In this document: positions 1 to 18,600 of the stretch, in pieces
Layout of the letters: the number at the start of each line of letters is the position of its first letter
Numbering within the stretch: position 1 is the stretch's first letter
Assembly: GCA_034190875.2 (NCBI GenBank)
Contig: CM067358.1
Coordinates: 51,302,557 to 51,366,556, forward strand
Reading direction: 5' to 3'
Origin: Urechis unicinctus
Lineage: Eukaryota; Annelida; Polychaeta; Xenopneusta; Urechidae
Length of the DNA stretch: 64,000 nt
The notes under the pieces: generated by a model
The model's input: the letters and a program-made list of their open reading frames with translations, nothing else
Databases searched by the model: none
Told to the model about the DNA's origin: nothing
Translations under genes and position numbers: made by a program

Positions 1-391
1 CGATCTCTTCAGCTCAGATGTGAACGACCACAATCTTAAGCTGAACCTTCATTTCTATGAACGGAAACATTACCAAAACATAGGTCACACATCCTCTCTA
101 TCGTGACAATTTGCTCATATAGAAAAAGAACATTTGTGTCTTACAGCATAACCATATCCTCCAGGCGATGTCCCAATGTTCTGGTGAGATCACCCATCAA
201 GATACCTAAGAGTAAGAGAGTAAAGAGGTTGTACGATCTTTAAAGCGTAAGTGTAATCTGTTACTTTCCATCATAACCTAGTCACATGTCGACCACATGC
301 AGTTGGTTCATCTTTTTTAATATAAGATGTGTATTTCAAATTAAACAGAAAGATAAGATAGAAATGAACCTGGCACTTGCGTAGCATTTAC

Positions 392-586
392 CTCCAGACA
401 GTTCAAGAAGATACTGATATTCGTTGACAGGGTCACCAAAATCAAACGATGGATGGGCATCAAGCGGCGCGGTTGGTGTTGCATCATGGTTAGTTGTGGG
501 AGAATTAGTGGTAGGCATTCTCGTTGTGTTGTCGGTACTCCTTGTATCATTGTCATCCGGCGAAAATGTGGTATTTATTTGAGTAT
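392..586 (-). CDS. Exon: Thr/Ser/Pro-rich linker (last exon inside the window)
   Basis: The exon is 195 nt, phase 1-1, with a TTATAG acceptor and a G|GTAAAT donor. It encodes [20 protein letters not shown], then [20 protein letters not shown] and [19 protein letters not shown]. The composition suggests a mucin-like, O-glycosylated spacer (inferred). The gene continues to the left of the window. Confidence 0.5.
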
Positions 587-3500
587 CTATAACCGTAAAT
601 ATTTGCCATCCAAAATAAGCACAAACGCTACTAAATTGAAATGTACTTTTTTTTGGAGACAACGTGTGTAATTGCAGTGGTTACCATGAGGTAATTACAC
701 TGTTTTGACTGGTTTAATAGAAATGGCAGGATAGAAGTCAGAAGATAGAGGCCACTACGCTGGACCATTTTGATCCTACCAATAAGATCACATGCAGTAG
801 TAATTATACGAAGAACGAGAAACACGCAGCCCAACGGGTCGATTTCTGTGAAAGACATAACTTGCCAGGCCGCTGCCTCTCATTGGAATACATGCAAGCT
901 TAACTGAATAAAAAGCAGGGGCGCTATCCAACTTCAGAATAAATAATTAAATCGCTTTTTGGGGACCCACATGTCTGCCTGTAATGGGGAATTTGCACAC
1001 CAGTTGATCCGCGCCCACCCTCTCTGCCTGGTTGAAAAACAAATAACCCTCCCTGCTCCTCCCACAAATATAGAAAAATCCCCAAAGAGCAAGGCTAGAC
1101 CAAGAGATGAGCCCAACCACTCTGTTCGCTACTGCCTTTAGTCAGAGAAGTCGTTATTGCATCCTGTTTGGCCCTAGATGCCAAATTAACGCCGTGGTCA
1201 CATGGTATAGATCATACATAATTGCTTCCCCAAGTTTATCTGGACATGCTCGGATTATGTCTGTGGCACATTGTTGCACCTTGTCTTCTGTTAATCAGTA
1301 GGGCATGTGAGCTTGTTGGCAGAATCAAAGTGATCAACCTCAATCCCATGTTGAAGTTAGTACAGATTATTTACCATAATCGGTACATGGCCCGTGTAGA
1401 AGTTGAATTTCTCCAAGCCAAACATACAGTGGTTTGGGTGCAAGATTCGGTCCAACCTCCAGCTGAAATTCCACTCTGGACACCGAGTCTGTCAGGTTTA
1501 TGTTGAGTATAGGATTGTTAACTTGGCTCTCGTAATCATAAAACCAGTAAAGAGCCAGTTCACTTTTGCGTTTCTCGTGGTAGGCACTGATACGTATAGC
1601 ACTGGGTGGTGATGATTGTGAGTCAAGGAAGAAGAGAGAGGCTTGTAAACAATGAATCTGGGTGACGATCACTTCTGGGCTAACAAGGATAAATATGCCA
1701 CCAGATGTTCCGACTTCGACCCCCATGACGTAATCTGTTCAAAATCACAATCATCGTAACAAGTACATTTTCCCCAATTCTCCTCGTCTACTAAAATCTG
1801 TAAATATATCTTCAAGCTATAATGTTATCTGAATCAAAAACATCGCTTCGCTTATTACATTGACATTTACCGGGTACATTAAGTGTCGGAAATACGTCAG
1901 GTTGACCCGAGCCATCGTCTGGCATTTCCCCACTGCTAGATCCGCTCGGCAGCTCGGGTGTGAACGTCCCACTTCCAGATTCCTCATCTCCACTAATATA
2001 TCCACTTCCACTCTCAGATCCTGACCCATCATCATTCTTATTGTCATCGTCATCATCTTGTCCTCGTATATATGCGACTGAAATATCATAGTCACTTAAG
2101 AGTAACAAATTATTTATTAGTTGACAAAACCTGAACTTCCATGTGCTATCATTTTTAGCCAACCTTGGTCTTCTGTACATCACGAACACAGCATAAGATG
2201 CACATTTATGTCCATAATGATATATCAAGCACTCTTAAGAAGTTAATTGAAATAGAAGACCAACGTGAGAAAGGCTCCAAATACTGAAACTATTAGGGCG
2301 AGAGCACTGGAGTTATCCACATCTGATCCACAGTTCAATAAAATTCTGCTTGGATGCAAACTTCAATTTGACTAAGGATTAAGAAATTCCCTACGAGTGC
2401 TCTCCGTTTGGATCCGCAGCCAGTGAAATTCGCTTGGAGATACATCAACATAGCCACATTGGTTTTCTTCTGAAAAGTCACAGGCTAAACTTCCATTGTT
2501 GCCATCTGAATAAGACATAAGGAAGTAATTTTCAACGTTCTGTAACTGTACAGCCAATCCCAACACACGTCCTTGGTTTGTATGTGTTACTCAATTCTCT
2601 ATGTTATTTTGACAAATTATACTCACATACATCAACACATGATGAGCCAGGGGTAAAGGTTATTTGGTCGATTGCTGCCACTAATGAACTGTATTCATTT
2701 GATCCAGACGCCTCATACATGAAATGCACTTTGCCCATATCAGATGGTAACTGTACCATCATGATATGCCAAGTAAAGCCCAACATGATATTGGACCTAG
2801 ATGAACCATAAAACAAATTGAAATAAAGAAGCAGACAATTGACGCGCTATTTTCGGAATATTGCCGTCTGTTATTTGTTGTAAATACTACCTGAGTAATT
2901 CTCTGTGATGGATTCCGTCATCGCTTTGAGAGTTTGAGGAGATAACAAATGTGGCAAACGACTTGACGCGCAGAGCTAAACAGGAGACTGACAGCACGTC
3001 AACGGCCACACTCACCATCGATGCCTTGTTCAGGCCACTCTGATGCGTGAGGCGAGACCGGCATTCACTGTTATAGCCTACAGCCCAAACCACACCAGAC
3101 TGATAACCTACTGGCAAACAGACAGTTAATAGATAATATGGTGGTTTCTGGAAGACTTACGCAGTTGGTTGTTGTCGTAAGTGGTGTTATACGTGAGAGA
3201 GAATCCCCCTCTCGTTACCGAAAAGTCCGAGAAGAAGTAGATGCTGGCGGTATTATTGCTGATGGACAGTGGTGGAGGAAGAGTCTCACCGCAATAATGA
3301 GTACCAGTAAAATCCACACTTGATTCGTAAATACCGCCTTGTACCTAAACAGAACACCGACAGACTAAATATACTCACTGCTTATGGAATGATAAAACCA
3401 CAAAGGCTCTGCTTTGCAAGGGTCATGTCTAGCGGATACTACACTCTGTCTCCCACAGAAACCATGTCCCATCACCTAAATGCCTGAATGAAAATAGAAA

Positions 3501-6500
3501 CACTTCAAGGGACAGGCGGACCCGAGTCTAATTTAGTTTGTTAATGAGTGTTTTTACTATTTGGAATCTTCATGGGGGCACCAATGGCATATCCGAATAC
3601 ACGTCCGACTGACCCGACGTCGTGGGCTACATCGGGTGTGTGGTTACCTGTGTTTTACAAAAGTATCAGTTTGGCCCCCCTGTTGTGATGTATCAGTGAT
3701 TCGAAAGCAATTGTCAGTTGAACTTAAGTATCATTTCAAGGTTGAAGGTCAAAATGAGTCTGATAACATACCTATACTCTGACGAAGACCTCATGAAAAG
3801 GATGACGTGAGCACAACAAACGACGGATGTGGAGCTGCTTCAATTTTCGTTAGCGACAGATTGCCATTTTTTATGTGAACGCTCACAATGACAAGAAATT
3901 TATGCAATAACGCACCTTGATGTAGTCATAGCAAGACGAATCTTGCTTTGTCTCGACGTCTATGGCTATGAAGTTGATGTCAATCGTGCTGCCCTCTGGT
4001 TGTACAATATAATAAATACAACTAGCGCGGTTATCGTATTGCTCAGGGTAGTTAGGAGATGTGATCTCCCCTGATTGGTCGCGGTAGATGCCGCCACATC
4101 CTGCACGGCACATCAAAAGCATTTCCAATGTATGAGGTTACCATTTTTATTATTTCGGGTAACATGATTCTCGGTTCAATTGATCGTAAATTTGACCTTT
4201 CCCGGTTGGTATTTCGTCCACTTTGGCAACAGATTCTCGTTGAAATGTGAAGAATGTCGAGTTGGACATGTAGTTATAACCGCAAGAACCTTCCAAAAAG
4301 TCACAACTGATGTTGCCCTTTTCTGGAAATAGTACTTCTATAATTAGCAATGACAATATTGTGTTCAGTTCGTTCAGTAAGAGGTATATCGTGCTGCGAT
4401 TACAGCAGTAGGTAAATATGTTCGCTGTTCACAGTCCTGTCATTTACATGTCGCTTTTTTCGACGTAATGATTCAGTCCTCGCAATAACTGGTCATTAAT
4501 CACTTACCAGTTGGCATGACGACATCATGGGGGGATGTGTCCAACATGGAAACACTGGCCAGGGCGATGCTACCTTTATTGGTACCACTGTTGAGGGTTC
4601 CCTCCATGCTCAGGGAGTACTGTCCCATGGGAAGGGCTGCTTGAAACACATTCCATCTCCCGGACCTTAAAGTATGGTCATTCGTCGTAAATAGATTTGT
4701 CTTTCTCACGCCGGATATGGTTAGAAATATCTGAAACTGTTCTAATTCGATGTCCTTGGTTTGGGACACGAATAGATAGAATTGCAGTGTTTTGTTGGCT
4801 TCAATGTTGATGACAGGGCTGTGAAGAGTAGCCTTGTCGCCCCCCTGACCAGTGAAAGCATTCAGAAGCATATAATGTGTCCCACCTGGAGAGAGTGCAT
4901 AGAGCATGCTGTCTTGTTTGAAAGGGTCAACACCATTCCGAGTGCACAAAGCACTGTGATAGTGATCTACCTCGCTAGGTGTGTAGGGCTATGATAAAAT
5001 AAATCTATTTGGACCAAGTCTTACCTGTTGGGTGAGATGAGGGTATGTCGTTACCGTCTGCCTCAAACACTTCTTCTAGTGAGGTTATGGCCCAGGTAAA
5101 TTCATTGTTGTTGGGAAAAGTATATCCGCAGATGTAGGTATCGTTGAAGTCACAGATAAAGGTCCTGCGCAGTGCTTCAACATCATTTAAGATGAGTTTA
5201 AATGCAGTGTTTAGAAACTGATTGAACTGGCAAGGGTTCTGAGGATTTCTAATACAATATCTGTCTGTGAATCTAATACAATAGTTTATCTACTTGTGAA
5301 TTTTACGTGTTTTAAATGGCATAAAAAACGGAGTGTTAACTTGTATTTAAATAGAAAATTAACCAATGTTAATGATAAATATGAATGTACAACGTTCTGA
5401 CGAGAAATAAGGTAAAATGACTGACCACATGGTGCCCACTCGTCACTGCCATCCCAACAGTCGTTATTACCATCACAGGTCATACTCTTGGGCAAACAAA
5501 AGTGGTTTGCACATGTGAACTGCTCGGCATCACATTCTGATCAGCAAAAACTAATAAACTGTAGAATTTTTTTTGAAACAAACAAAGCCTGAATTATCAG
5601 GTGACAAAATGTGGTGTATATTTTTCCCTGGCAGAATAAACTGACCACAGTAGTCAATGCTGCAGTACTGCTTGATGAAGGGTTCTACAAAACATGACGG
5701 CGCTGTGTCTCCCACCAATGTACGGCAACTACTACCTCCGTTGCGGGAAACATCGTAGGGAAACATCAAAGCCAGCATCGCTGTTGGTTGAGGCAATTGA
5801 TGCCATCCAAGGCACTGCTGCCCTGTTTTGGACACGCTGATACTCCCTGTGTAGTCATTCCCAGTGCGCTTGGCCATGCACGATTTCTCTGGTGACGTCA
5901 CATAATCAAAGATGACCCATTCAACTTATTATATTCGCCTCATGATGAGCATCATGATAAATGGTTGGCAGCATATAAATTCAAACACAAATGCTGCTGT
6001 TTGGTTAGCCCATATTTACTTGGTGTCAAAACTAATGTTCATCCTACCCATAATAGCGTCACAATCGTTGAGCGTAATGTCATCTAGCACCATGCCACTG
6101 GACTGTAGCATCCCTCTAGTACCCTGTATATTCACCATGTGAAGTCCAGAGAGTAATCTGACAGCAACACGGCTCCACTTGCCATCGTATTGAGCTCTGT
6201 ATGAAGTTTGGAGCAGCTTTGTGGCTACCTTTTCCTCATCAATTGATGATACAGTAATTGTTGAAGTTTGGTCTTTACCAAGAAAGCTGTAGAAGAATGC
6301 TAGACATTTGCCGGTTGTGTCCATGTAACCTGTGTAGAGGCTGGCTTGGAAGCCACGCCGGTTGCTGGCCAGGGGCAGGTGGCGGTAGTGACCTCGCCCT
6401 GTCGTGTACAATCATATCACAATATTAGTACTACAAGACTTGGCACATAGATTAACTCCGTTTAGATTACTGCAGTAAGTAAACAATTTTTACTAGAAGA

Positions 6501-9500
6501 ACGCTCGTGTCATTTTGTTTGCTGAATCTACAACTCACGCCACTCGTGTTGCCATTCATACGTTCTGCGGATTGTACTACATTTGCAGTTTTTAAATACG
6601 GTTTTTAAATACACCAAACGTCAGAGACACTCGTACGCTCTGATACAACATAAAGTCTGGTAGGAGATGAGAAGAAAACTCCTCACATCGAACTGTGACC
6701 CAAATATACCGTTGACCAGTGAGCAGTTGCATCGTGTATTTAATGGTTCTGAGGATCTGTCTGTACACGGGCCGAAAGATCGTTTGGCCCAACTTGGTGG
6801 AACTTGAGGAATGCATACAAAATGGATGCATCCATTTGTTGGTGTCATATGTTTGCACAATATTACTAGCCAGTAAATTGCACCTCTCAACGTTTGCTAT
6901 GAAAACTTTGACTATGTATGATGGCTGTGTACCTGATGCGAGCGTATTGTCCGCGTTCATGTTGCCGGAGCTCGCTTCCACCACCTGCCACTCCTCTTGA
7001 GACGCCTCGTCATTCTGCAATGGACATCTGTCTGCCGTGTCGGATTCGTGATCACAGTCAAGGAAGGCCGTTTCTAGATGTTTAAGGACAAACAATATGA
7101 AATAAATGGATCATTGAACATGCGTGCTATCTATGTGAACAAGTATTTGGATGGGTGCTGAAGAAGCGCCAGACGAGCCGCACCGGCACACCGTCGTCTC
7201 CGGAAGAACTCTGCCGCCTCGCCCGTCTCGCCCAGGCTACATTGGTGAGCTGTATTCCCCGTGAATGACGTCAGCAAACAGGTCCTGTTGTTTGGCTCGT
7301 AGATGACAGTACTGCACGACAGCCCATACACCTGCGTGCACAGTGCCTTGCATACCTGACGAGTTGTCTCAGCGATGGCGAGTACGAGGGGATCCATGTA
7401 GTTGGTAGCGCTAGGGAATGAGTTTCCATGGGACGATACTGTCGGGTAGCCACACACTTTTAGGTGGAGAGCAAATGTTTCATAGCAGGCCACTCCAGAC
7501 AATACTGCCGACATATACAGATTGACCTCAATTGTTGGCATTTGATGATAGATCACCCAAAATGATGCGAGGAGCATCAAAATGATCTCACATTCATCAA
7601 AATAACAGCAATATATTTGCTTTATTCACGTACTACCATGACTTAGGTCCTGGGCATGCACCATCAAATCGTATAATCCTTCCTCGTGGATGGCGCTCAT
7701 CCTGACACACACATTAAGCATGGTAAATCGGCATTTTGTTTTAAGTAAAGACTTGGCAATGGTACATATATATTCCGCCCATCCTTTAACGTAATGGACC
7801 TTGACTATTGGGCAGCCTGGTGAGAGTTTACAGTCCAGTAGGTAAAAAGATTCATGCCGAGTGTCAAATGGAACGTATTTGGCGTTGTCCTAAGATAACA
7901 AGTTAACTTGTCGGCTTTGTCGCATAAGCTCCTGAAAGTCAGCATTCTTCTTTTATTGGAACCTATTGATTCGAGACTTTACTACCAGCGGATATAGAAT
8001 CACAAATCGGAGTGTTAGTATGAGATGTTCGATGCTGTAGCCTGATGTAACCTATGCGATGATTGGAAGTGTCTATCAATGAGTAATGTGAGGTCTTTGA
8101 GGTACCTGTTCCCAATGACTTTTGTCAGAGGTCCTACGCCACTGGCATGATCTAATGGCCTTGTTGTCCCAGGGCTCAGGTCAAAGGGAGGGAACTTGTC
8201 AGAAACTTAGGTTGACGCCTTGTGTGCTGCGTTAGGGTTGAAAGAAAGGTGCTAGGTAGATATCTGTTCTACCAGACCCTCAGTTACCTGTTGCCTTTGA
8301 CGAGGACATATTCTGCGGGCCACACAAACTGCCCAGGCCCGTTCAGGTAGGAACGTCTATTTTGGGTTCATTACAAGCCCCATCCCACACCTCCACTCTG
8401 TATGAGGCTCTGTACTCCATCAATCGGCTTGTTGGGCCACGGACGATAACATAAGTCCAAGATTAGGACTGGGCTTTTTTATCAAAAGGGTGGGAAAAGT
8501 AGTGACGGGCGACAACTCTAATACTTTTATTTAGTCGCTGTTGTCTGAAAGGGGGCTATGCTAGTTGTGGTGTCAAGACACGGTGATCTTTTACAACTGG
8601 TAATAATAAGTTGTGTGCATTATTATAGACAGGTTTGTTATACTCTCTTGTGAATAAATTTTGCCATTCCCACACCATATTCAATATTTATATACATGCC
8701 ATAGCTCTGGATTGATTCAAGCAAACGTCATCAGAGGCAACGAGGGTGCTGTCAGTCTAGCATGATTATGCATTATATTCATTTAAGGAGTCTTAAATAG
8801 AATCAGGTACCACTTCAAACAAATAAATTGGCAAATTGACTAATTTAATAACAGTGAATAATGAACCATGCTGAACTTTTTGATGGAATGACAACATCAC
8901 TAATCCAATGACTCATCTTGCAGTGTCTGCCGGCAAACTTCATGCCATGAGGAGATAACATGATTGGTTTATCATCCTGGACATTATGGCAGATTGAGTT
9001 TACTGTCACAATTGCTTGTGGACATTATGTTTTCTATCGGGGAGTTATTTGTATGCATGTAAAACAATGAGTCCCTTAAAAACGCATTGGTTTGCTACCG
9101 AAAGACAATGCGAATTCAAAGACACTTTAACCGCTGTTAGTGCTTCAACACCGCGTGTTACTTTGGGTTGCCTGGCTACAAAAATCAAATGTTATCTCAT
9201 TACAAGACGACAATCACACGAAATGCACCTTTATCGCCTATTCGTAACATTACCGCAAGTCCTAGGTAAAACGATTTCGTAGTTGCGCTATTCGTATATA
9301 TTCGCGGAAGAAAATAACAGTTGACGTATCAGGGGGCACAATAAATTCACCAACAGTGATATCAATCATTCATAGAATTCAATTGATGTGCACAATTCGT
9401 TCACGGCAGTTATGTGTTCAGGCTGGGCCTTGCTTGAAATACCACGGCCTTTATTGGTATATCCACGCACTGTTACGTCTACTGCGCGGTGCTCAATAGA

Positions 9501-12500
9501 AGCAATGTTTTATGCAGAGCAGTATGACTTAGCATAGACGTTATGCGTCACGTTTATATTTACAAACTTACGCAACAAGACAGCTTAAGTCAAAGCGTAC
9601 GCCTGTTTTGTCGCATACAGTTTATCGTTGTCACGTCACTAAATCGGACAATAACCGCTTGCACGAGTTGGGGCGCCGATACGAGAGAAGATCGTTCATA
9701 ACCAACAGTAATAGCGGGCTGATATCATTGATAACATCAACAGTGAGGAGCTTGGCTTCAAAAAGTAACTATGTGTTGAAGTTTATGTCAATGTCAGTGA
9801 GCTGTCACCTCAAAAACTGGGCCACCCGGAAATGACGCAAACGAATGCCAACAAAACTGTTGACTGATATGGTGCCACTTAATACCACAATGACGACTGA
9901 GCTTGGTGTTGTTGTGTTGACAGTTTTCGCCTTTACATTCCATGTGCTGAATCTGTCTGCTTCTGTAACCGGTCCCAATGGGTAAAAGACCAGTTGGTGA
10001 TCAGCCACGAATGACCAATAGCTATATAATTTTACAGCATGCACAATAAATGAACTGACTGAATTGTCGAATGTGATGCTACTTCCTTTGTCTGAAAGTA
10101 TGTGTGACAGGTCCATGTCACTGACTATTGTCTGATACATCATCCAATCCAACTTCTCCTTCCCAATCAATACCTCATAAAGATGTTCGCATATTAGTTT
10201 CACTGTTCTGCTCTTTGATCATTTGGTAAACATATTCAGAATGTATGTATTTACTGCAAGTTGATAGAATAATCTGTGTAAATGTTTTGTTTGTTTTGGC
10301 TCAAGACTGGATATACCTTCCATGCCAGTAGTACTGGTATGTATTGAGTGCATAGAATGTTTCATGCATTATTTGTAATATTTTAAGCCCGTAATGCTCT
10401 TTTGTTGAGTTACAAACAGGTAATACAGTTCATAACCTGTGCTTTAAACTCTCCCAGACATGATGGCTTTTACCTTTATTACTGAGTGTATTTTCAGTAC
10501 TTGTATTAACTAATTATGTGTATATATCAGACCAGCTGGTGAAAATTATATCAACTGTATTCATAAATCAGGAGAAATTCTTCCCTTCTCTTACTTGATA
10601 TATAATCTGTAAAACCATTGTCAGTGTATTTGGCACAGGGAAGTTTTTATTACATATTCATGTAATTTCCTAGTTTGAAAATGGTATAGCACCAGAACTC
10701 ATATTTTGAGTTGGTTTTACTCATATTTGATAGTTGCATTGCATTATCAGCAATAAGTACTGAAGTTGGTCTTTAAAATACAAACAAAAGTGTTGATCCA
10801 GCCTTGTCTTACAGTTTATATTTTTCAAGTTGAGGTTTACTGCACACTTCAGGGAATTTGTTTTTACCCCAATTTATTTGTATGTTTCATACCCAATTTT
10901 CTCTTTATCTATTTGTTCATGGTCATTGTATACAAAGTCTTGTGTTTTTACTCACCTCTGTTGAAGATGCAACATTCAATCAAGTTGCAAGTTTACATAA
11001 TTTGGTGCATTAAATTTATTTGCAGGACATGCAGTGCAGATATTGGTCCTGTTGTACATATGTTTTCTGTATATTTTGAAGTTCTTTACAGATCTCTTTA
11101 TGCGTGAAAAAAGCCATGATTTGCTACAATTATACTTACAAAATGTTCTGTAATGCAAAATTTACAAGTGTATCAGTCACATAACGAGGGTATTAATAGT
11201 ATGTCGATGTTTGGGAGGCATGCCGCTTTTCATGGTCAGAATGGCAGTAAATGCTAAAAGTTCGCTTAGCTCAATTCAGCAGAGTGCTGATTTTGCATGC
11301 GATAAGGAAAACATAATATTCATTTTCATGGCAGTATAATGAGAATACCTGTACTTGTTGCTGTTGCAGATGGTGACGGCAGGGAAGACCATAGATTCAT
11401 TGTAGCTCACCTCGACGTTGATGGTTTTAGGGCGTGACTCCAGAAAGCGCAACTTACTGACCATGAGGTAGGTGAATAAGCCAAATGACGCCATTAGGAC
11501 CATGGCCCATAGCAACCTGTGAACAGTTCAAGCGTCACCGTGTTAATATCTCTCAGGCGTCTCTCAATTGCAATTCCGCTTATGCTACGACTGCAAAAGT
11601 CAACATCTACAGCACTCAGATAAACATCACCAAAATTAACCCTATAGTCGCCCCCCAAAAAAATTACCTCCCTTATTGGACCCGAATTTTCAATACAAAA
11701 AACAGGATCTTCAATCACCCTCCATATTTCTAAAAGCCAAGCTCCACAACTCCAAAATGTACAACAGCTAGGAAAAATACCCATCATTGCAAAATTAGTT
11801 TATTAAAAAACAGAAAACAAAGGTATAATACATGGAATCACAGTTGAAATTTCAGAGCAGGAATTGTTACAGGCATTTTCACCATATCGAGTCACCGCAG
11901 TTAGGCGCCTTGGCAAAATAAACCCCACTGAACCCATCGAATTAACTTTTTCCTCCCCCCACCTCCCCTCAAAAATCCAAATTGGCTACTCCTTCCATAA
12001 TGTGAAAGTCTGCATTCCAAACCCCACATGATGCTTTAAGTGCAACAGTTATGGACACACAGCTACATACTGCCCAAATAATACCACCTGCCCTAACTGC
12101 GGTGACCGCCATCAGTATTCAGAATGTAAAGCCACCACCAAGAGATGTCCAAACTGCGGGGGTCAACATAGTGCTGCCTTTAAAGGTTGCAAAACATATA
12201 GCAAAGCCAAGACAATCAATCAAATTAAATCAACTGAAAATATTACGCACGCTCAGGCGGCTTCTCTTGTTCCCCCAACATCACCCCCGTCCACCCATAG
12301 GTCCCCCTCATCCCCACCCCCTCCAACATCCTTCCTCCCACCCCCTTCCCCCAAAACGCAATCTCTCCCCCTCAAACTCATTCAGCTAAACCTGCTTTGT
12401 CTGCATTACCGTGTCCCCCAAAAACCGCAAAGTCTCCCACAAACCTTCCCAAAACCCACTCCCTCTCCTACTACTCAAAAAAACCAATCCACTCCCACCC

Positions 12501-15500
12501 CTTCTGCCACTCAAACACCAAATGTAACGCCACAACCCTCCTCGGCCACCAAACTGTCAGATTTTGTTTACCTCTCTACCGCCATCCTCTCTTCTCACCT
12601 CTCATCTGATGCCAAAGCGAAAGCCCTTATGGCAATCCCATATGAACTTCTCAAAGTCGCCATTCCGGTATAAACCCTAACTCGTGCTATTAACTGTAAC
12701 CAGCCAAATCTCTAAATACCTCAATCAACCATCTTCAGTCTAAACACAAAAATCACTTCCCATTGTCAAATTCCTTATAACTCTATTGCCAACTTATTTA
12801 TATTATCTCTGCTCATCATCTCCCCCCTATTAAATTTCCCTTCCCATTCCCAACCAGAGCAACCTTTTAGACCCAACTTTCAATCTAAAGAACAAAAAAA
12901 TATAAATGTTTGGTCATGGAATTGTCGAAGCCTTCAAAACCAACTACCTGAATTCCCCTAATCCCAAATCTAAAATAATGTCTCCAAGAAACTTTTTTTA
13001 AATCCAATAATAAACCCCACATTCGAAATTATTATATATTAAGGAAAGACAGAACATCAGCTAATCATGCAGGCCTAGCTATAATTGTAAATAAAAACAA
13101 GTAATTGAAATCAACATTTTTAATCAAATGCATCACATCTCAGATGTGTATGACAAATCAAACACTATAGAACCAAAACAATATCAGCCAATAGTTAACC
13201 TTCCCAGAAGCATAATAGCTGGGGATTTTAATGCCTCTCATCCCTTTTGGCACCACCCAAGTTCAAATACTACAGGAAATGCTCTTTTTAAAATAATACA
13301 AGATGATAACATTACCCTCCATAATGATAGCTCCCCCCACACATTACTATAATAATGGTGAAAACATACTAGATCTTATACTTACATCCCAAGATATATC
13401 ACACAAATTTTCATTTAAAAATACCCACAATACAATGGGAAGTGATCATTCTATCATTTCAATCACAAATAATAAACCAAATTCACCTAACTCCTTCCAC
13501 CCCCCACACAAGTGGAATATCAAAGTAGCTGATTGGTCCTTGTTTCAAAAACTCTGCAAGCAGACCATCAATAATAAAACCCCCTTACCTTTTACGATAA
13601 TTTCTATGATAAACTCATTAAAAAAAGCTAAACAAGCCATTCCTCTAAATAATAATCACCGTAAACAACTAAAATCCCATCCTAGGTGGAATCCTAACTG
13701 AACCCTCATAACCAAAGAAAGAAACAAAGCCAGGAACAAATACTATCATAATAAAACTTAATTAAAAAGACTTACAGCAAAAGTCAAATACACACTTAAA
13801 CAAGCAAAGCTATCCTTTTGGCAAAATAAATGCTCCTCCCTAAACAAACCAAATTTAAAAGAATTGTGGAAAACTGTCAATATCCTCAAAGGAAATGGCC
13901 CTAACACTGATATTCCACCAATCCAAAACCTCACAAACAATCTTAATACAGAAAATAATCAACAAATATCAGACACTTTAGTCTCTTATTTTGCAGAATC
14001 CAAATTCACCAGTCAACGAACCCTTTTCCTTAACAGAACTCACTAAAGCTGTTAACAAATCCAAAAACACAGCTCCAGGCAAAGATCTACACACATACTC
14101 CTTTTTCAGTCACCTTCCGCCAAACTGCCTAGAGGCACTCCTTCAAATTTTTAACCAACTCTGGCAATCATCCATAACCCCTCCCTCCTGGAATTTCTCT
14201 ATCATTGTCCCCATACTTAAATCTAATCAGAACTCACACACTCCAACCTCATATCGCCCCATTAGCTTAGCCCCAGTTCCCTCCAAAATATTTGAAACTA
14301 TTTTAAACAACAGAATCACATGGCACTTAGAACATAATAATCTATAACCCTAATCTAACATCCTCATCCATTTATGCAGTCGACATAGCCATCTGGTCTA
14401 CTGGTAAACTTTCAACTAAACTAACAAAACTCCTTCAAAATCATATAAACAAAATTCAAAATTGGGCTTCTAAATGGGCCATTACCTTTTTTCCTTCAAA
14501 ATCTGAAGCCATTCATTTTGGAACCAATATAAAACACAAAATCCCTACTTTCTTCATCAAAAACCAACCCATCCCTAACCAAACCTCGACTAAGTTCCTT
14601 GGAGTTATTATAGATAAAGGACTTCCCTGGAGAGAACACATCTCACACACGGTAAATGAGTGCCACAAAATCACTAACCTCATCAGATATATTAGTGGAA
14701 CTTCCTGGGGTGCAAAGAAACATATATCTTGCAAAATACACTCATCGCACATTCTCTATGGAGCCCCAGCCATAATCACTGCATCTAAAACCAAACATTC
14801 ACAGACTAGAAACTGTACAGTCAGCCGCTCTCAGAGCCATCACTAAAACACATCGCTCTACACGTATCAACTCTCTCTAGGTATCCACCGGCTTCCCCAC
14901 TATACCCCTTCAACTTTTAAAAGCCACTCTTAAATACAAAACCAGAGCTAAAACGTTCAACCTCCCAACTCAAAACATTTTTAATGAAACTCAACACAAT
15001 CAAAACGATCGAAAACATAAAAATACCACTCCCATACACCCAATCTCACCCACAATCTCACTCTATTTTTCTTCTTACTTTAATGCACTGGAGCGGCCCC
15101 CAGTGTGAGAAACCTCCTTATTTTGCACATTCGTACAATCTTGTTAAGTACACCTCATTTCATTTTCTCACGTTTTATTTTAAAATAGCCACACATCCTA
15201 ACCTTTCGGCGTTTTCTCTGTCGTTACTCTTCTTGATACCCAGGTGGCGTTTTTTTTTAAATTTCTTTTATAGTGATATAAAGCACAAAGAAACACATTA
15301 ATAGTGGTACATGGCCAAAGCTGCCAAATCCACTCTAATTTGAATAAACAACAACAACAATGATCATTATGTTATAGTCAATTAAGGACATGATAAACAG
15401 CAACATGACAGTATGGCAGAACTTACCTGCGTAGGATACCCGAGGCAGGGATGGTGGTATAGCGCAATCCATGCAGCGTCGTGGCCTGAGTGTAGTCAAA

Positions 15501-15557
15501 CAACAGCGTGCGCCAAGGTGTGTTTTCTTTGTCAAACTGTTTACTGCCCTGCGCCAT
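392..15557 (-). CDS. Putative chimeric DEG/ENaC channel subunit with a modular PAN/MAM/kringle/LDLa/CUB ectodomain (gene model, 3' end outside window)
   Basis: This gene model joins 20 minus-strand exons listed separately. The N-terminus has the cytoplasmic HG motif, TM1 and FPAVTICN signature of DEG/ENaC sodium channels. It is followed by a Cys-rich segment, PAN, MAM, kringle, LDLa, three further MAM domains (one containing a CUB, one containing a Ser-Gly linker) and a Thr-rich linker. The exons from 7889 to 1375 join in frame without a phase clash, nearly always at phase 1. The 586-392 exon is also phase 1-1. Two joins are incomplete: exon 2 leaves in phase 2 while the next candidate enters in phase 1, and the 10.2-9.8 kb exon leaves in phase 2 while the 7.9 kb exon enters in phase 0, so small exons are probably missing. 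DEG/ENaC subunits need a second membrane helix, which would lie beyond position 1. The alternative is two genes: a channel fragment (15.5-11.3 kb) and a separate MAM/CUB/kringle protein. Confidence is high for the modules and moderate for the fusion. Confidence 0.6.
762..860 (-). repeat. Diverged repeat, inverted copy of 1250-1339
   Basis: On the minus strand this stretch aligns with the plus strand at 1250-1339, sharing TATGTCT at one end, a GCATGTGA-CTT-TTGG core and GATCAAA at the other. It also happens to look like a 66-nt phase 1-1 exon (CACAG acceptor, G|GTAGGA donor), but being part of a repeat makes that doubtful. Confidence 0.4.
1250..1339 (+). repeat. Diverged repeat, inverted copy of 762-860
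   Basis: This is the plus-strand partner of the minus-strand repeat at 762-860, with roughly 390 bases between them. It lies in the intron left of the 1734-1375 exon. The family is not recognised. Confidence 0.4.
1375..1734 (-). CDS. Exon: MAM domain 4, C-terminal half
   Basis: The exon is 360 nt, phase 1-1, with a GAACAG acceptor and a G|GTAAAT donor. It encodes [20 protein letters not shown], then [54 protein letters not shown]. The Y-x-x-G...G-G-x-(I/F) start, internal Cys strand and final I-x-L-x-x-G-x-C are MAM C-half features. Confidence 0.7.
1871..2077 (-). CDS. Exon: acidic Ser-Gly linker inside MAM domain 4
   Basis: The exon is 207 nt, phase 1-1, with a TTTCAG acceptor and a G|GTAAAT donor. 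It encodes a low-complexity stretch: [20 protein letters not shown], then [19 protein letters not shown], then [18 protein letters not shown]. Multiple S-G dipeptides next to acidic residues are the classical context for glycosaminoglycan attachment (inferred). No fold is expected. It lies between the two halves of a MAM domain. Confidence 0.65.
2395..2539 (-). CDS. Exon: MAM domain 4, N-terminal half
   Basis: The exon is 145 nt, with a TTACAG acceptor (phase 0) and a C|GTAGGG donor (phase 1). It encodes [12 protein letters not shown], then [20 protein letters not shown], then [11 protein letters not shown]. The C-D-F-x-x-x-x-x-C-G-Y core is clear. A second possible acceptor (TTATTCAG before ATGGC) is phase 1, but it would not fit the preceding donor. 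Confidence 0.7.
2631..2796 (-). CDS. Exon: MAM domain 3, C-terminal end
   Basis: The exon is 166 nt, with an ATCTAG acceptor (phase 2) and a GAT|GTATGT donor (phase 0). It encodes [20 protein letters not shown], then [20 protein letters not shown], then SC. The W-x-x-x-x-x-x-L-P strand and the A-I-D-x-I-x-(F)-x-x-G-x-C ending are the MAM C-terminal signature. This half is separated from its N-terminal half by the CUB cassette. Confidence 0.75.
2891..3110 (-). CDS. Exon: MAM domain 3, central part
   Basis: The exon is 220 nt, entering in phase 1 after TTGCCAG and leaving in phase 2 at CTCAG|GTAGTA. It encodes [20 protein letters not shown], then [20 protein letters not shown] and [10 protein letters not shown]. 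The SCL-x-L-R strand with its internal Cys fits the centre of a MAM. Identification rests mainly on the next exon, which completes the domain in frame. Confidence 0.6.
3161..3344 (-). CDS. Exon: CUB domain, second half
   Basis: The exon is 184 nt, entering in phase 0 after TTTAG and leaving in phase 1 at C|GTAAGT. It encodes VQGGIYESS, then [20 protein letters not shown], then [19 protein letters not shown]. The Y-C-G-x-x-x-P-P, F-x-S-D-x-S-x-x-x-x-G-F-x-x-x-Y end is the CUB C-terminal signature. The two CUB exons together form one phase 1-1 cassette. Confidence 0.88.
3916..4100 (-). CDS. Exon: CUB domain, first half
   Basis: The exon is 185 nt, entering in phase 1 after GTGCAG and leaving in phase 0 at AAG|GTGCGT. 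It encodes [20 protein letters not shown], then [20 protein letters not shown], then [16 protein letters not shown]. The G-x-I-x-S-P-N-Y-P motif, the C-x-Y-x-I-x-x-P-x-G strand, and C-x-D-Y with an upstream D-x-E (the usual calcium-site residues) identify it firmly as CUB. Confidence 0.9.
4197..4322 (-). CDS. Exon: MAM domain 3, N-terminal half
   Basis: The exon is 126 nt, phase 1-1, with a TTCCAG acceptor. It encodes [20 protein letters not shown], then FTFQRES and EIPTGKG. The C-D-F-x-x-x-x-C-G-Y core is a MAM N-terminal half. The donor is uncertain: G|GTCAAA (used here) ends at the same point as the other MAM N-halves, while a later T|GTTACC is also in phase 1. The next exon is not a MAM C-half but a CUB (see findings). 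Confidence 0.7.
4508..4966 (-). CDS. Exon: MAM domain 2, C-terminal half
   Basis: The exon is 459 nt, phase 1-1. The acceptor chosen is GAGGTAG before 4966, because it restores phase 1 and gives the MAM-typical G-D-H at the junction. The donor is G|GTAAGT. It encodes [66 protein letters not shown] and [12 protein letters not shown]. All the C-terminal MAM strands are present, but the usual internal Cys and final Cys are missing or displaced, so its disulphides may be unusual. Confidence 0.8.
5025..5264 (-). CDS. Exon: linker and MAM domain 2, N-terminal half
   Basis: The exon is 240 nt, phase 1-1, with a TTCACAG acceptor and an ACAG|GTAAGA donor. A first part ([16 protein letters not shown]) links from LDLa. 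The second part is the MAM start: [19 protein letters not shown], then [11 protein letters not shown], ending SSHPTG. The C-D-F-x(5-6)-C-G-Y core and the final P-T-G before the phase-1 split match MAM closely. Confidence 0.75.
5426..5536 (-). CDS. Exon: LDL-receptor class A domain
   Basis: The exon is 111 nt, phase 1-1, exactly one module, with a GATCAG acceptor and a G|GTCAGT donor. It encodes [19 protein letters not shown] followed by [18 protein letters not shown]. All six Cys and the calcium-binding D-x-x-x-D-x-x-D-x-S-D-E cage are intact. LDLa modules bind ligands in a calcium-dependent way. MAM and LDLa are often neighbours in animal extracellular proteins. Confidence 0.92.
5646..5888 (-). 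CDS. Exon: kringle domain
   Basis: The exon is 243 nt, phase 1-1, with a CACCAG acceptor and a G|GTCAGT donor. It encodes about 81 residues, the usual kringle length, with six cysteines: [47 protein letters not shown]. The G-x-D-Y-x-G-x-x-S and Q-x-C-x-x-W motifs are diagnostic. The lysine-binding D-x-D motif of plasminogen kringles is not evident. Kringles occur in proteases, growth factors and Ror/MuSK receptors. A kringle in a protein that starts as an ion channel is unusual. Confidence 0.85.
6048..6398 (-). CDS. Exon: MAM domain 1, C-terminal half
   Basis: The exon is 351 nt, phase 1-1, with a CGACAG acceptor and a G|GTAGGA donor. It encodes a central strand with the internal Cys ([12 protein letters not shown]), then [11 protein letters not shown], then [21 protein letters not shown], then [11 protein letters not shown]. 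This is a complete second half of a MAM domain, including the W-x-x-V strand and the (V/I)-L-D-D-I-x-L signature before the last Cys. MAM domains mediate adhesion or oligomerisation of extracellular proteins. Confidence 0.8.
6933..7073 (-). CDS. Exon: MAM domain 1, N-terminal half
   Basis: The exon is 141 nt, phase 1-1, with an acceptor in ACATCTAG and a donor CAG|GTACAC. It encodes [19 protein letters not shown], then [15 protein letters not shown] and NTLASG. The DCDFE-like start, the Cys about ten residues later, and the acidic/aromatic E-W motif are the hallmark of a MAM N-terminal half. The G at the phase-1 split joins to GRGHYRHL in the next exon, as expected for the variable loop of MAM. 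Confidence 0.7.
7184..7504 (-). CDS. Exon: PAN/apple domain
   Basis: The exon is 321 nt, phase 1-1, with a CGGCAG acceptor and a GCCG|GTGCGG donor. It encodes about 107 residues: [15 protein letters not shown], then [18 protein letters not shown], then [13 protein letters not shown], then EFFRRRRC. This follows the PAN/apple pattern: an early Cys, a C-x3-C helix, a central C-x(n)-Y strand, a C-x-L strand, and an aromatic-basic-Cys end. PAN domains bind proteins or carbohydrates outside the cell. The segment between the first Cys and the helix is long, which is unusual but tolerated in the family. Confidence 0.65.
7637..7889 (-). CDS. Candidate exon: Cys-rich segment, possibly a degenerate PAN/apple repeat
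   Basis: The frame is open for 84 codons after a TTATCTTAG acceptor. It contains [45 protein letters not shown] and [11 protein letters not shown]. The donor G|GTAGTA leaves phase 1, which fits the PAN exon at 7504 exactly. The spacing of EYIC...TKC...NVC resembles the ETTRQVC...LSC...RTC core of the next exon, so it may be a second, weaker PAN repeat in which one core Cys is Ala. It enters in phase 0, so it does not join directly to the 9809 donor. Confidence 0.4.
7890..9808. other. Intronic stretch, no assigned gene
   Basis: The stretch lies between the 10.2-9.8 kb and 7.9-7.6 kb exons. At 8.1-8.4 kb the minus strand has short open segments that end at GGAACAG|GTACCT and GCAACAG|GTAACT. 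One of them (around 8363-8290, [17 protein letters not shown]) would be phase 2-2, but no family is recognised. A connecting exon is expected here because of the phase mismatch. The rest shows nothing definite. Confidence 0.3.
9809..10202 (-). CDS. Candidate exon: farnesoic-acid O-methyltransferase-like (Methyltransf_FA) segment
   Basis: This is an open frame of about 131 codons bounded by an ACAG acceptor and an AG|GTGACA donor in phase 2. The segment reads LYEVLIG near its start, [16 protein letters not shown] in the middle and [11 protein letters not shown] further on. This order (YE-x-x-IG, aromatic-W, a short glycine hairpin, F-x-x-W) resembles the Methyltransf_FA domain found in many invertebrate extracellular proteins, where it is not thought to be catalytic. 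A divergent MAM C-terminal half is the alternative. The acceptor phase (1) does not fit exon 2 directly, so a further exon between 11349 and 10202 is expected. It was recognised from pattern only. Confidence 0.45.
10203..11348. other. AT-rich, T-rich (plus strand) intronic stretch
   Basis: The composition is strongly T-rich on the plus strand with many TTTATT/TGTATT runs. This resembles a 3' untranslated sequence more than the surrounding intron. A 113-codon open frame on the plus strand (10766-11107) is low-complexity hydrophobic and is not called a gene. A missing exon of the channel gene probably lies here. Confidence 0.3.
11349..11516 (-). CDS. Exon 2: TM1 and start of the DEG/ENaC ectodomain
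   Basis: The exon has a CACAG acceptor before 11516. It encodes a hydrophobic helix ([18 protein letters not shown]), then [18 protein letters not shown], then [23 protein letters not shown] followed by a basic residue is the family signature of the first ectodomain strand after TM1, and the spacing matches DEG/ENaC channels. The exon is 168 nt, entering and leaving in phase 2. The donor (GTATTC) is weak, so the right splice site could lie elsewhere in the open frame, which continues to about 11276. No other ASC-domain sequence was found in the window. Confidence 0.8.
11819..12673 (+). pseudogene. LINE ORF1 (gag-like, CCHC zinc knuckles), broken
   Basis: The frame reads [36 protein letters not shown], then three zinc knuckles: [14 protein letters not shown] (C-x2-C-x4-H-x4-C), [13 protein letters not shown] and [15 protein letters not shown], at about 12034-12190. 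A Pro/Ser/Thr-rich tail follows, ending in VAIPV-stop. A TGA at 12029-12031 lies right before the first knuckle. The product would be an RNA-binding nucleocapsid-like protein. Confidence 0.8.
12898..13700 (+). pseudogene. LINE AP-endonuclease domain, broken
   Basis: The domain begins with [18 protein letters not shown], the usual first strand of LINE endonucleases. It then shows [14 protein letters not shown] (the D-F-N catalytic strand, about 13216) and, in another frame, NILDLILTS and MGSDHSIIS (the S-D-H motif, about 13436). At least two frameshifts separate these parts, and about 100 bases after the start are heavily decayed. Confidence 0.75.
13700..15000 (+). pseudogene. LINE reverse transcriptase, core deleted
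   Basis: The N-terminal blocks are present: [17 protein letters not shown] (about 14050), [20 protein letters not shown], and [20 protein letters not shown] (about 14250). The reading then jumps from TWHLEHNNL (14345) to [16 protein letters not shown] (about 14370), so the blocks between the finger region and the active site are missing. The active site is YAVD instead of YADD. The thumb ([38 protein letters not shown]) follows. Confidence 0.8.
15427..15557 (-). CDS. Exon 1: start codon and cytoplasmic N-terminus of DEG/ENaC subunit
   Basis: The exon encodes about 43 residues starting [15 protein letters not shown]. It carries ATTLHGLRY, which matches the conserved His-Gly (HG) gating motif before TM1 in DEG/ENaC channels. 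The ATG at 15557-15555 has A at -3 and G at +4, a good animal initiation context. The exon ends at a consensus GTAAGT donor (15426-15421) in phase 2. That phase joins in frame to the exon at 11516, giving an Arg-Leu-Leu-Trp junction right before the membrane helix. Exons further upstream cannot be excluded. Confidence 0.75.

Positions 15558-18600
<3,043 letters not shown>

Follow-up and report, generated by a model that had tools for sequence, protein, structure and literature searches.

The minus-strand gene of the analysed window (64,000 nucleotides, C17:51302557-51366556 of the 1.19-Gb Urechis unicinctus genome), followed into the left flank and compared with its paralogs, is almost certainly a single gene that encodes a complete DEG/ENaC channel subunit, the ectodomain of which contains two large insertions. 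The features of DEG/ENaC channels were found in the gene or its copies: an HG motif before TM1, FPxVTxCN after TM1, the palm and thumb, and a GxS filter with TM2. Roughly three quarters of the protein consists of the two inserts. According to the alignments, the modules are inserted inside the finger domain and are not appended after the channel. The original prediction, made from the window sequence, had proposed a fusion of a channel start with a modular ectodomain; the fusion is supported as one gene, with the exon series from TM1 to TM2 retraced in three other loci. Two points refine it: the modules lie within the finger domain, and a second insert is present at the knuckle.

Exons and modules of the window gene

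The channel start (E1 and E2) and the module exons were confirmed on the minus strand at 15557..392. The spliced sequence of 3580 bases, or 1193 codons, contained 0 stops. The exon count was corrected from about 19 to 18, all in a series on one strand. One or two linking exons had been considered absent; one was indeed missing and was identified as E2b at 7701-7634, encoding the finger helix alpha-1. The exons are named E1, E2, E2b and E3-E17 in the window and E18-E25 to the left of it. The splice sites are predictions from the comparison of genome sequences; the internal boundaries are AG/GT and lie at the same positions as in a close paralog, the exons of which are 93-99% identical. Along the frame, the HG motif, TM1, FPAVTICN and the finger helix are followed by PAN, MAM, kringle, LDLa, MAM, CUB and MAM. 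The features of the window, all on the minus strand (-), are the following.

15427..15557 (-): E1, start Met, cytosolic N-terminus and HG motif TLHGL; the ASC profile match begins here; present at 7 of 11 paralog TM1 loci
11349..11516 (-): E2, TM1 and beta-1 (FPAVTICN); ASC profile match, TM1 exon genome search, splice model
7634..7701 (-): E2b, linking exon with finger helix alpha-1; present in 4 of 4 loci compared; aligns to ASIC1 alpha-1
7184..7504 (-): E3, PAN/apple domain, ends RRRRC; PAN_1 22.4 bits (cut-off 21.4); matched in 4 of 4 loci
6933..7073 (-): E4, MAM1 first half; Pfam, splice model
6048..6398 (-): E5, MAM1 second half; with E4 the best MAM stretch, positions 1-157 of 158; genome search
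5646..5888 (-): E6, kringle; Pfam 22.6 bits, below cut-off; four-locus profile matches plasminogen at 2e-13
5426..5536 (-): E7, LDLa with acidic DG..DC.D.SDE motif; 29.6 bits, above cut-off
5025..5174 (-): E8, MAM2 first half; MAM2 56.4 bits together with E9
4508..4885 (-): E9, MAM2 second half; MAM2 match with E8
4197..4322 (-): E10, MAM3 first half (weak); weak MAM match
3916..4100 (-): E11, CUB first half; CUB 84.4 bits together with E12
3161..3344 (-): E12, CUB second half; CUB match with E11
2891..3077 (-): E13, MAM3 second half (weak); weak MAM match
2627..2796 (-): E14, MAM3 end (weak); weak MAM match
2395..2505 (-): E15, MAM4 first half; MAM match, splice model
1871..2077 (-): possible extra exon, tentative and outside the model, acidic Ser-Gly-rich segment; open frame that would allow phase 1-1 in each of 3 close copies
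1375..1734 (-): E16, MAM4 second half; MAM4 22.3 bits, below the cut-off of 26.4
392..586 (-): E17, Thr-rich linker back into the channel finger domain; splice model

The exon phases fitted with E2b included and failed without it. In the 26-exon model of a paralog, 17 of the 25 junctions were in phase 1, which is usual for shuffled extracellular modules.

The spliced protein was compared with Pfam, a check put forward in the original prediction. On the 1193-aa protein, the ASC start (positions 1-89, 68.9 bits), MAM (131.3 bits in 3 stretches), CUB (84.4 bits) and LDLa (29.6 bits) were all above the curated cut-offs. The motif in LDLa presumably has a calcium role. The kringle and PAN calls were recovered by other routes. 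The kringle reached 22.6 bits, below the Pfam cut-off of 34.3, but the profile built from four loci gave 86 matches up to E 1 among solved sequences, the best at 2e-13, and the 60 of them that were listed are kringle proteins (plasminogen, HGF, prothrombin and ROR1/2, for example); by this profile the kringle identity is secured. PAN was absent up to E 1 from the Pfam scan of the 1193-aa protein and stayed under the cut-off in the full protein of the paralog C17b (18.4 bits), and the PAN exon profile gave 0 matches in the PDB; scanned alone, the window exon E3 matched PAN_1 above the cut-off, and matches were obtained in 4 of 4 loci.

The CUB exons E11-E12 lie between the two halves of a weak MAM domain (E10 and E13-E14, window 4322-2627, minus strand). 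The joined halves of this MAM3 matched positions 1-155 of 158 of MAM with 18.0 bits, and the second half alone with 13.2 bits. Three of the four members matched in joined or half form, all below the cut-off, and MAM3 gave no match in the PDB. This is no more than suggestive of a CUB nested inside a MAM domain, as if the module had entered the central intron of the MAM.

The acidic Ser-Gly-rich segment at 2077-1871 (minus strand) sits between the halves of MAM4 and resembles a glycosaminoglycan attachment sequence. Its substitutions among the close copies compared were without synonymous bias, and no match to its open reading frame was shown in two divergent loci. Within intron 1, which in C17b is 303 bases long, plus-strand ORFs similar to non-LTR retrotransposons were observed at window 12032-14846, presumably coding for zinc knuckles and reverse transcriptase. 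Beside the 5' side of the gene, there are a (TA)74 run at 16719-16866 and a minisatellite with 7.2 copies of a 25-base unit at 17651-17831.

Second half of the channel and the insertion points

The TM2 end had been placed outside the window, and the GGS filter with TM2 was found to the left of it on the same strand. In the 100 kb of left flank examined, the same-strand ORFs include GEIGGYMGLLLGGSIITVIEFLDL, which contains the filter and TM2, at -4254..-4400 and -26073..-26288, i.e. at about -4.3 kb in the window gene (copy A) and at -26.1 kb in an adjacent duplicate (copy B). Leftward extension had been named as a test of the fusion, and the C-terminal half of ASC proved to be present. When ASC proteins of this genome were used as queries, a match resembling the thumb appeared at -23.5 kb (E 1.1), weak when taken alone. 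The genome-wide ASC family search, in which 93 of 463 candidates were scored, had no C17 match among the 103 listed, so that the family escaped it and its exons had to be located in other ways.

The duplication was also evident in the DNA, as window 7257..33 matched -15103..-22256 with 96.1% identity and -2500..-8074 matched -24333..-29877 with 94.3%. In copy A, a run of 2500 N (-2499..0) occupies the position that E18-E21 and the first part of E22 have in copy B, and from copy B it is inferred that the same exons of copy A lie under this run. The rest of E22 and E23, E24 and E25 with TM2 followed in one frame from -2500 to about -4400. A stop soon after TM2 ends the cytosolic tail of copy A earlier than that of copy B. 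Copy B consists of E4-E25 with one terminal stop, without E1-E3. Being adjacent and 94-96% identical to the window, it could still be an uncollapsed haplotype. As the sole source of the copies, uncollapsed haplotypes would leave the paralogs on C2 and C12 and the identities of 33-65% unexplained. Between copies A and B, at -8.4 to -14.7 kb, there are Polinton/Maverick-like ORFs, which we take to be integrase-, ATPase- and protease-like, and they stand where the first exons of copy B would be expected. A decayed inverted fragment of the MAM1 exon lies at -30313..-29902, and similar fragments occur beside other copies, close to the 3' ends of several genes of the family.

Three loci with TM1 and the helical exon of the second insert on one strand were compared: C17b (C17:47.71-47.73 Mb), C2a (C2:61.25-61.26) and C17c (C17:66.91-66.93). 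C17b, which contains no N, gave 26 exons and 1964 aa with a single terminal stop. The identity of C17b to the window and copy B was about 90%, and the window-side matches were 33-65% identical in C2a and 35-83% in C17c. The exon series from TM1 to TM2 was traced exon by exon on one strand in all three, although E8, E10 and E11 of C2a were placed only roughly, E17 was without a match in C17c, and E1 was not found in C2a and C17c. The splice positions and phases agreed across the loci compared, and the doubtful sites (the acceptors of E5, E8, E9 and E15 and the donor of E4) had the same offset in all four loci. The Cys-rich palm/thumb was present in copy B, C17b, C2a and C17c and falls under the N run in copy A. 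C17c has a stop in E16 and its matched TM1 is without the first part; it may be a pseudogene.

An alternative with two adjacent genes, one for a channel fragment and one for a modular protein, was suggested by the approximately 3.4 kb between TM1 and the modules in which no exon had first been recognised. The linking exon E2b, however, was recovered there by comparison of introns, with relatives in the divergent loci at E 2e-5 to 6e-9, and was present in 4 of 4 loci. The frame is continuous through it, and no new gene end and start were found between TM1 and the modules. In C17b, and likewise in copy B, the modules run in frame into the second half of the channel, and the same exon order was found in C2a and C17c. 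By E2b, the frame of C17b and copy B and the repeated layout, two separate genes were ruled out, their probability being judged very slight. Chance adjacency of channel and modules was ruled out by the recurrence in 8 loci.

With its inserts, the C17b protein matched Pfam ASC with 224.5 bits in 3 stretches; after both inserts were excised, the remaining 441 aa matched ASC positions 1-454 of 455 in one stretch with 243.7 bits. The best-scoring solved chain for the excised sequence was ASIC1 (6ave, E 1.6e-42), 32 sequences being matched in all, and the ENaC, FaNaC and pickpocket chains ranked after it. In the ASIC1 alignment, HG, FPAVT-CN, the thumb and the filter were aligned. Insert 1, about 1060 residues, separates the finger helix alpha-1 from the strand that contains the first finger Cys; it comprises PAN, MAM, kringle, LDLa, MAM, CUB with flanking MAM halves, MAM and the Thr-rich linker. 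Insert 2, about 470 residues, stands at the knuckle helix between the post-thumb strand (CPDACDVVTFQTGVSY) and beta-11/12 (NYLQLDIFYGELKY), that is, between the palm strands beta-10 and beta-11, in place of the knuckle helix of other members; the strand names are those of ASIC. With insert 1 at the finger and insert 2 at the knuckle, both sit in the collar.

Four sequences of insert 2 were aligned over 424 columns, the others being 94, 39 and 33% identical to the first. No relative was found at E 0.001 among 5268 protein-database candidates, for which shared 5-residue words were needed. The single sequence gave a best E of 0.87 in the PDB, while the profile matched coiled-coil chains weakly (best E 0.0027), followed by designed proteins and a synaptonemal-complex protein. 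In Pfam, the matches were limited to weak, unrelated families (best 0.0046). Pro plus Gly amounts to 4-5%, and the helix propensity is marginally raised. From this composition and propensity and the weak coiled-coil matches, insert 2 is probably helical, with moderate confidence.

Selection, known channels and possible gating

The dN and dS values were determined according to Nei-Gojobori. Copy A (E1-E17) and C17b differed by a dN of 0.028 and a dS of 0.094, copy B (E4-E25) and C17b by 0.031 and 0.089, and copies A and B by 0.017 and 0.046, respectively. The dN/dS of 0.30-0.36 among the three indicates that selection acts on the reading frame. The corresponding dN and dS were 0.027 and 0.079 for the modules E4-E16 alone, 0.025 and 0.078 for E18-E21, and 0.035 and 0.086 for the helical block, so that modules and channel exons differ little in this subfamily. 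In the C2 subfamily (C2a against C17:28.25), the channel exons had a dN of 0.020 and a dS of 0.110, in comparison with 0.165 and 0.186 for the MAM4 second half and 0.103 and 0.162 for the helical block. Between C17b and C2a, the channel pieces were 55-77% identical, the modules 40-64%, and E22/E23 of the helical insert 32-34%. All Cys of the compared C17b pieces, i.e. excluding E1, E10, the CUB second half and the E17 linker, were kept in C2a. The pore thus appears to be held while the inserts change faster, which is clear only in the C2 subfamily and over the longer distance.

ASIC1 and ASIC2 (6ave, 6l6p) share the HG motif, TM1, FPAVT-CN, palm, thumb, beta-12 and TM2 with the Urechis protein but have no modules and a short knuckle region. 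The filter is GAS in ASIC and GGS in the Urechis family, in which the ASIC form was not found. ENaC was a weaker sequence match than ASIC. According to PMC6197857, the GRIP domain of ENaC lies between the finger helices alpha-1 and alpha-2, which in the ASIC1 alignment is the place of insert 1; GRIP is described as two to four beta strands, in contrast to the about 1060 residues of named modules found here. EGAS, a DEG/ENaC channel named for extra extracellular modules, gives the idea a precedent. It differs in that its modules are, by name, EGF; the Pfam scan of the C17b protein listed 9 families up to E 1, and EGF is not one of them. Plasminogen, HGF and cubilin share modules with insert 1, as the kringle profile (plasminogen, 2e-13) illustrates, and a full-length protein-database search gave one match among 7731 candidates, a cubilin. 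To our knowledge, modular proteins of this type carry no channel.

Among 18 candidate long proteins with a similar channel start, none matched at E 0.001, a high score from 102 residues and shared 5-residue words being needed; the word requirement limits the database negatives, and absence is not proven by them. In the literature, searched as titles and abstract starts outside preprints and most subscription papers, no DEG/ENaC with MAM, CUB, kringle, LDLa or PAN modules was found. In PMC9822975, MAM, EGF, finger and insertion turned up only as words of the 'mammals' type, and PMC10148893 has no mention of EGF, egas, GRIP or insertion. As no such module-bearing channel was found in the literature or the protein database, the protein was judged to be a new form of DEG/ENaC.

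Taken as a whole, a channel with two inserts that is gated by a ligand or by the matrix is a reasonably likely explanation of the sequence, and such gating considered by itself is just on the probable side. Three subunits would form a Na+-permeable pore, and the collar of finger and knuckle would carry adhesive arms; each trimer would have three long arms on its fingers and, at the knuckle, another three blocks. If the arms bound a ligand, the matrix or a partner on a cell surface, the finger would be shifted or pulled, and the binding or tension would move the finger and thumb and open or close the pore. Coupling of the pore to movements of the finger and thumb is a feature of both ASIC and ENaC. 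The protein may in this way act as a tethered sensor, as originally supposed. More tentatively, the family might consist of tandemly amplified ionotropic adhesion receptors, in which fast-changing arms on the finger would bind to matrix, self/non-self or microbial surfaces and thereby open a conserved Na+ pore directly, the helical collar providing the coupling; in that case, the helical collar replacing the knuckle would be a previously undescribed coupling element.

Gating by proteolysis would assign another role to the same modules. They would form an enlarged GRIP-like inhibitory segment, and cleavage, or a protease docked via the kringle, PAN, CUB or LDLa, would open the pore. These modules are common in protease cascades, the GRIP segment of ENaC is protease-sensitive and ENaC is gated there by proteolysis, and insert 1 shares the insertion point of GRIP. 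The 1193-aa protein has one R-x-(R/K)-R run only, RRRR at residue 224, which is kept in 4 of 4 loci. However, the final conserved Cys in the PAN exon comes directly after this run, which makes RRRR more likely a part of the PAN fold, and a furin site there was judged less likely; in addition, the best-scoring solved relatives are ASICs and not ENaC. Proteolytic gating was considered unlikely. The large share of the inserts in the protein and the many copies with stops or missing parts would also suit a non-conducting adhesion or decoy receptor, in which the channel fold serves for trimerisation and membrane anchoring only. Against this, the TM2 exon with GGYMGLLLGGS was unchanged in 14 of 14 matches (11 distinct copies) across 12 helical-exon loci, and the channel exons are the most constrained part; a non-conducting receptor seems rather improbable and a working channel quite probable.

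The tethering and modulation of DEG/ENaC channels are usually ascribed to separate matrix and accessory proteins. With built-in adhesive arms on the finger, at the proteolysis site of ENaC, it could be asked directly whether a ligand or a pull opens the pore. The gene suggests that inserts hundreds of residues long are tolerated at the finger and knuckle; the family offers a constrained pore together with a variable outer part.

Family members and locus order

The copy B helical exon, which with its flanks spans 487 codons, gave 33 genome matches, on C17, C12 and C2. The TM1 exon gave 53, of which the first 12 were family-like and most others resembled more distant DEG/ENaC exons. The genome search scores the best candidates only, and these counts, like those of the loci, are lower bounds. 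The order TM1-MAM1-helical exon on one strand was found in at least 8 loci:

C17 (Mb): 46.4, 47.7, 50.87, 50.90, 51.31 (window), 66.9
C2 (Mb): 61.25, 61.31

The thumb exon was also in place in 7 of the 8, the window's lying under N. The helical matches at C17 46.4 and 50.87 were broken up and contained stops; stops are listed for many other genome matches as well, in part beyond the modelled exon ends.

The following were left out of the count: C12:62.77 and copy B, both without TM1; C17:50.93-50.96, which is in order and has a helical fragment of only 106 residues and no thumb; C17:50.86 and 46.29, with helical and TM2 exons and no TM1, MAM1 or thumb match; C17:67.2, with a partial thumb and helical exon and no TM1 or MAM1; C17:28.25, which extends from MAM4 to TM2 and had no earlier-exon match within 3.3 kb upstream, a stretch containing N; C17:59.76-59.77, with no TM1 or MAM1; and smaller helical fragments on C17 and C2. 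One locus, C12:62.716-62.731 Mb, was out of order and was likewise left out (as C12:62.72-62.73): MAM1 lies upstream of both TM1 and the helical exon, and a thumb fragment is found on the opposite strand. Two further TM1-like matches, at C17:60.37 and 60.46, stand alone. At C17:59.76-59.77 Mb, four helical exons lie 3.3-3.4 kb apart with a TM2 exon after three of them, an arrangement which reads as a tandem array of C-terminal halves.
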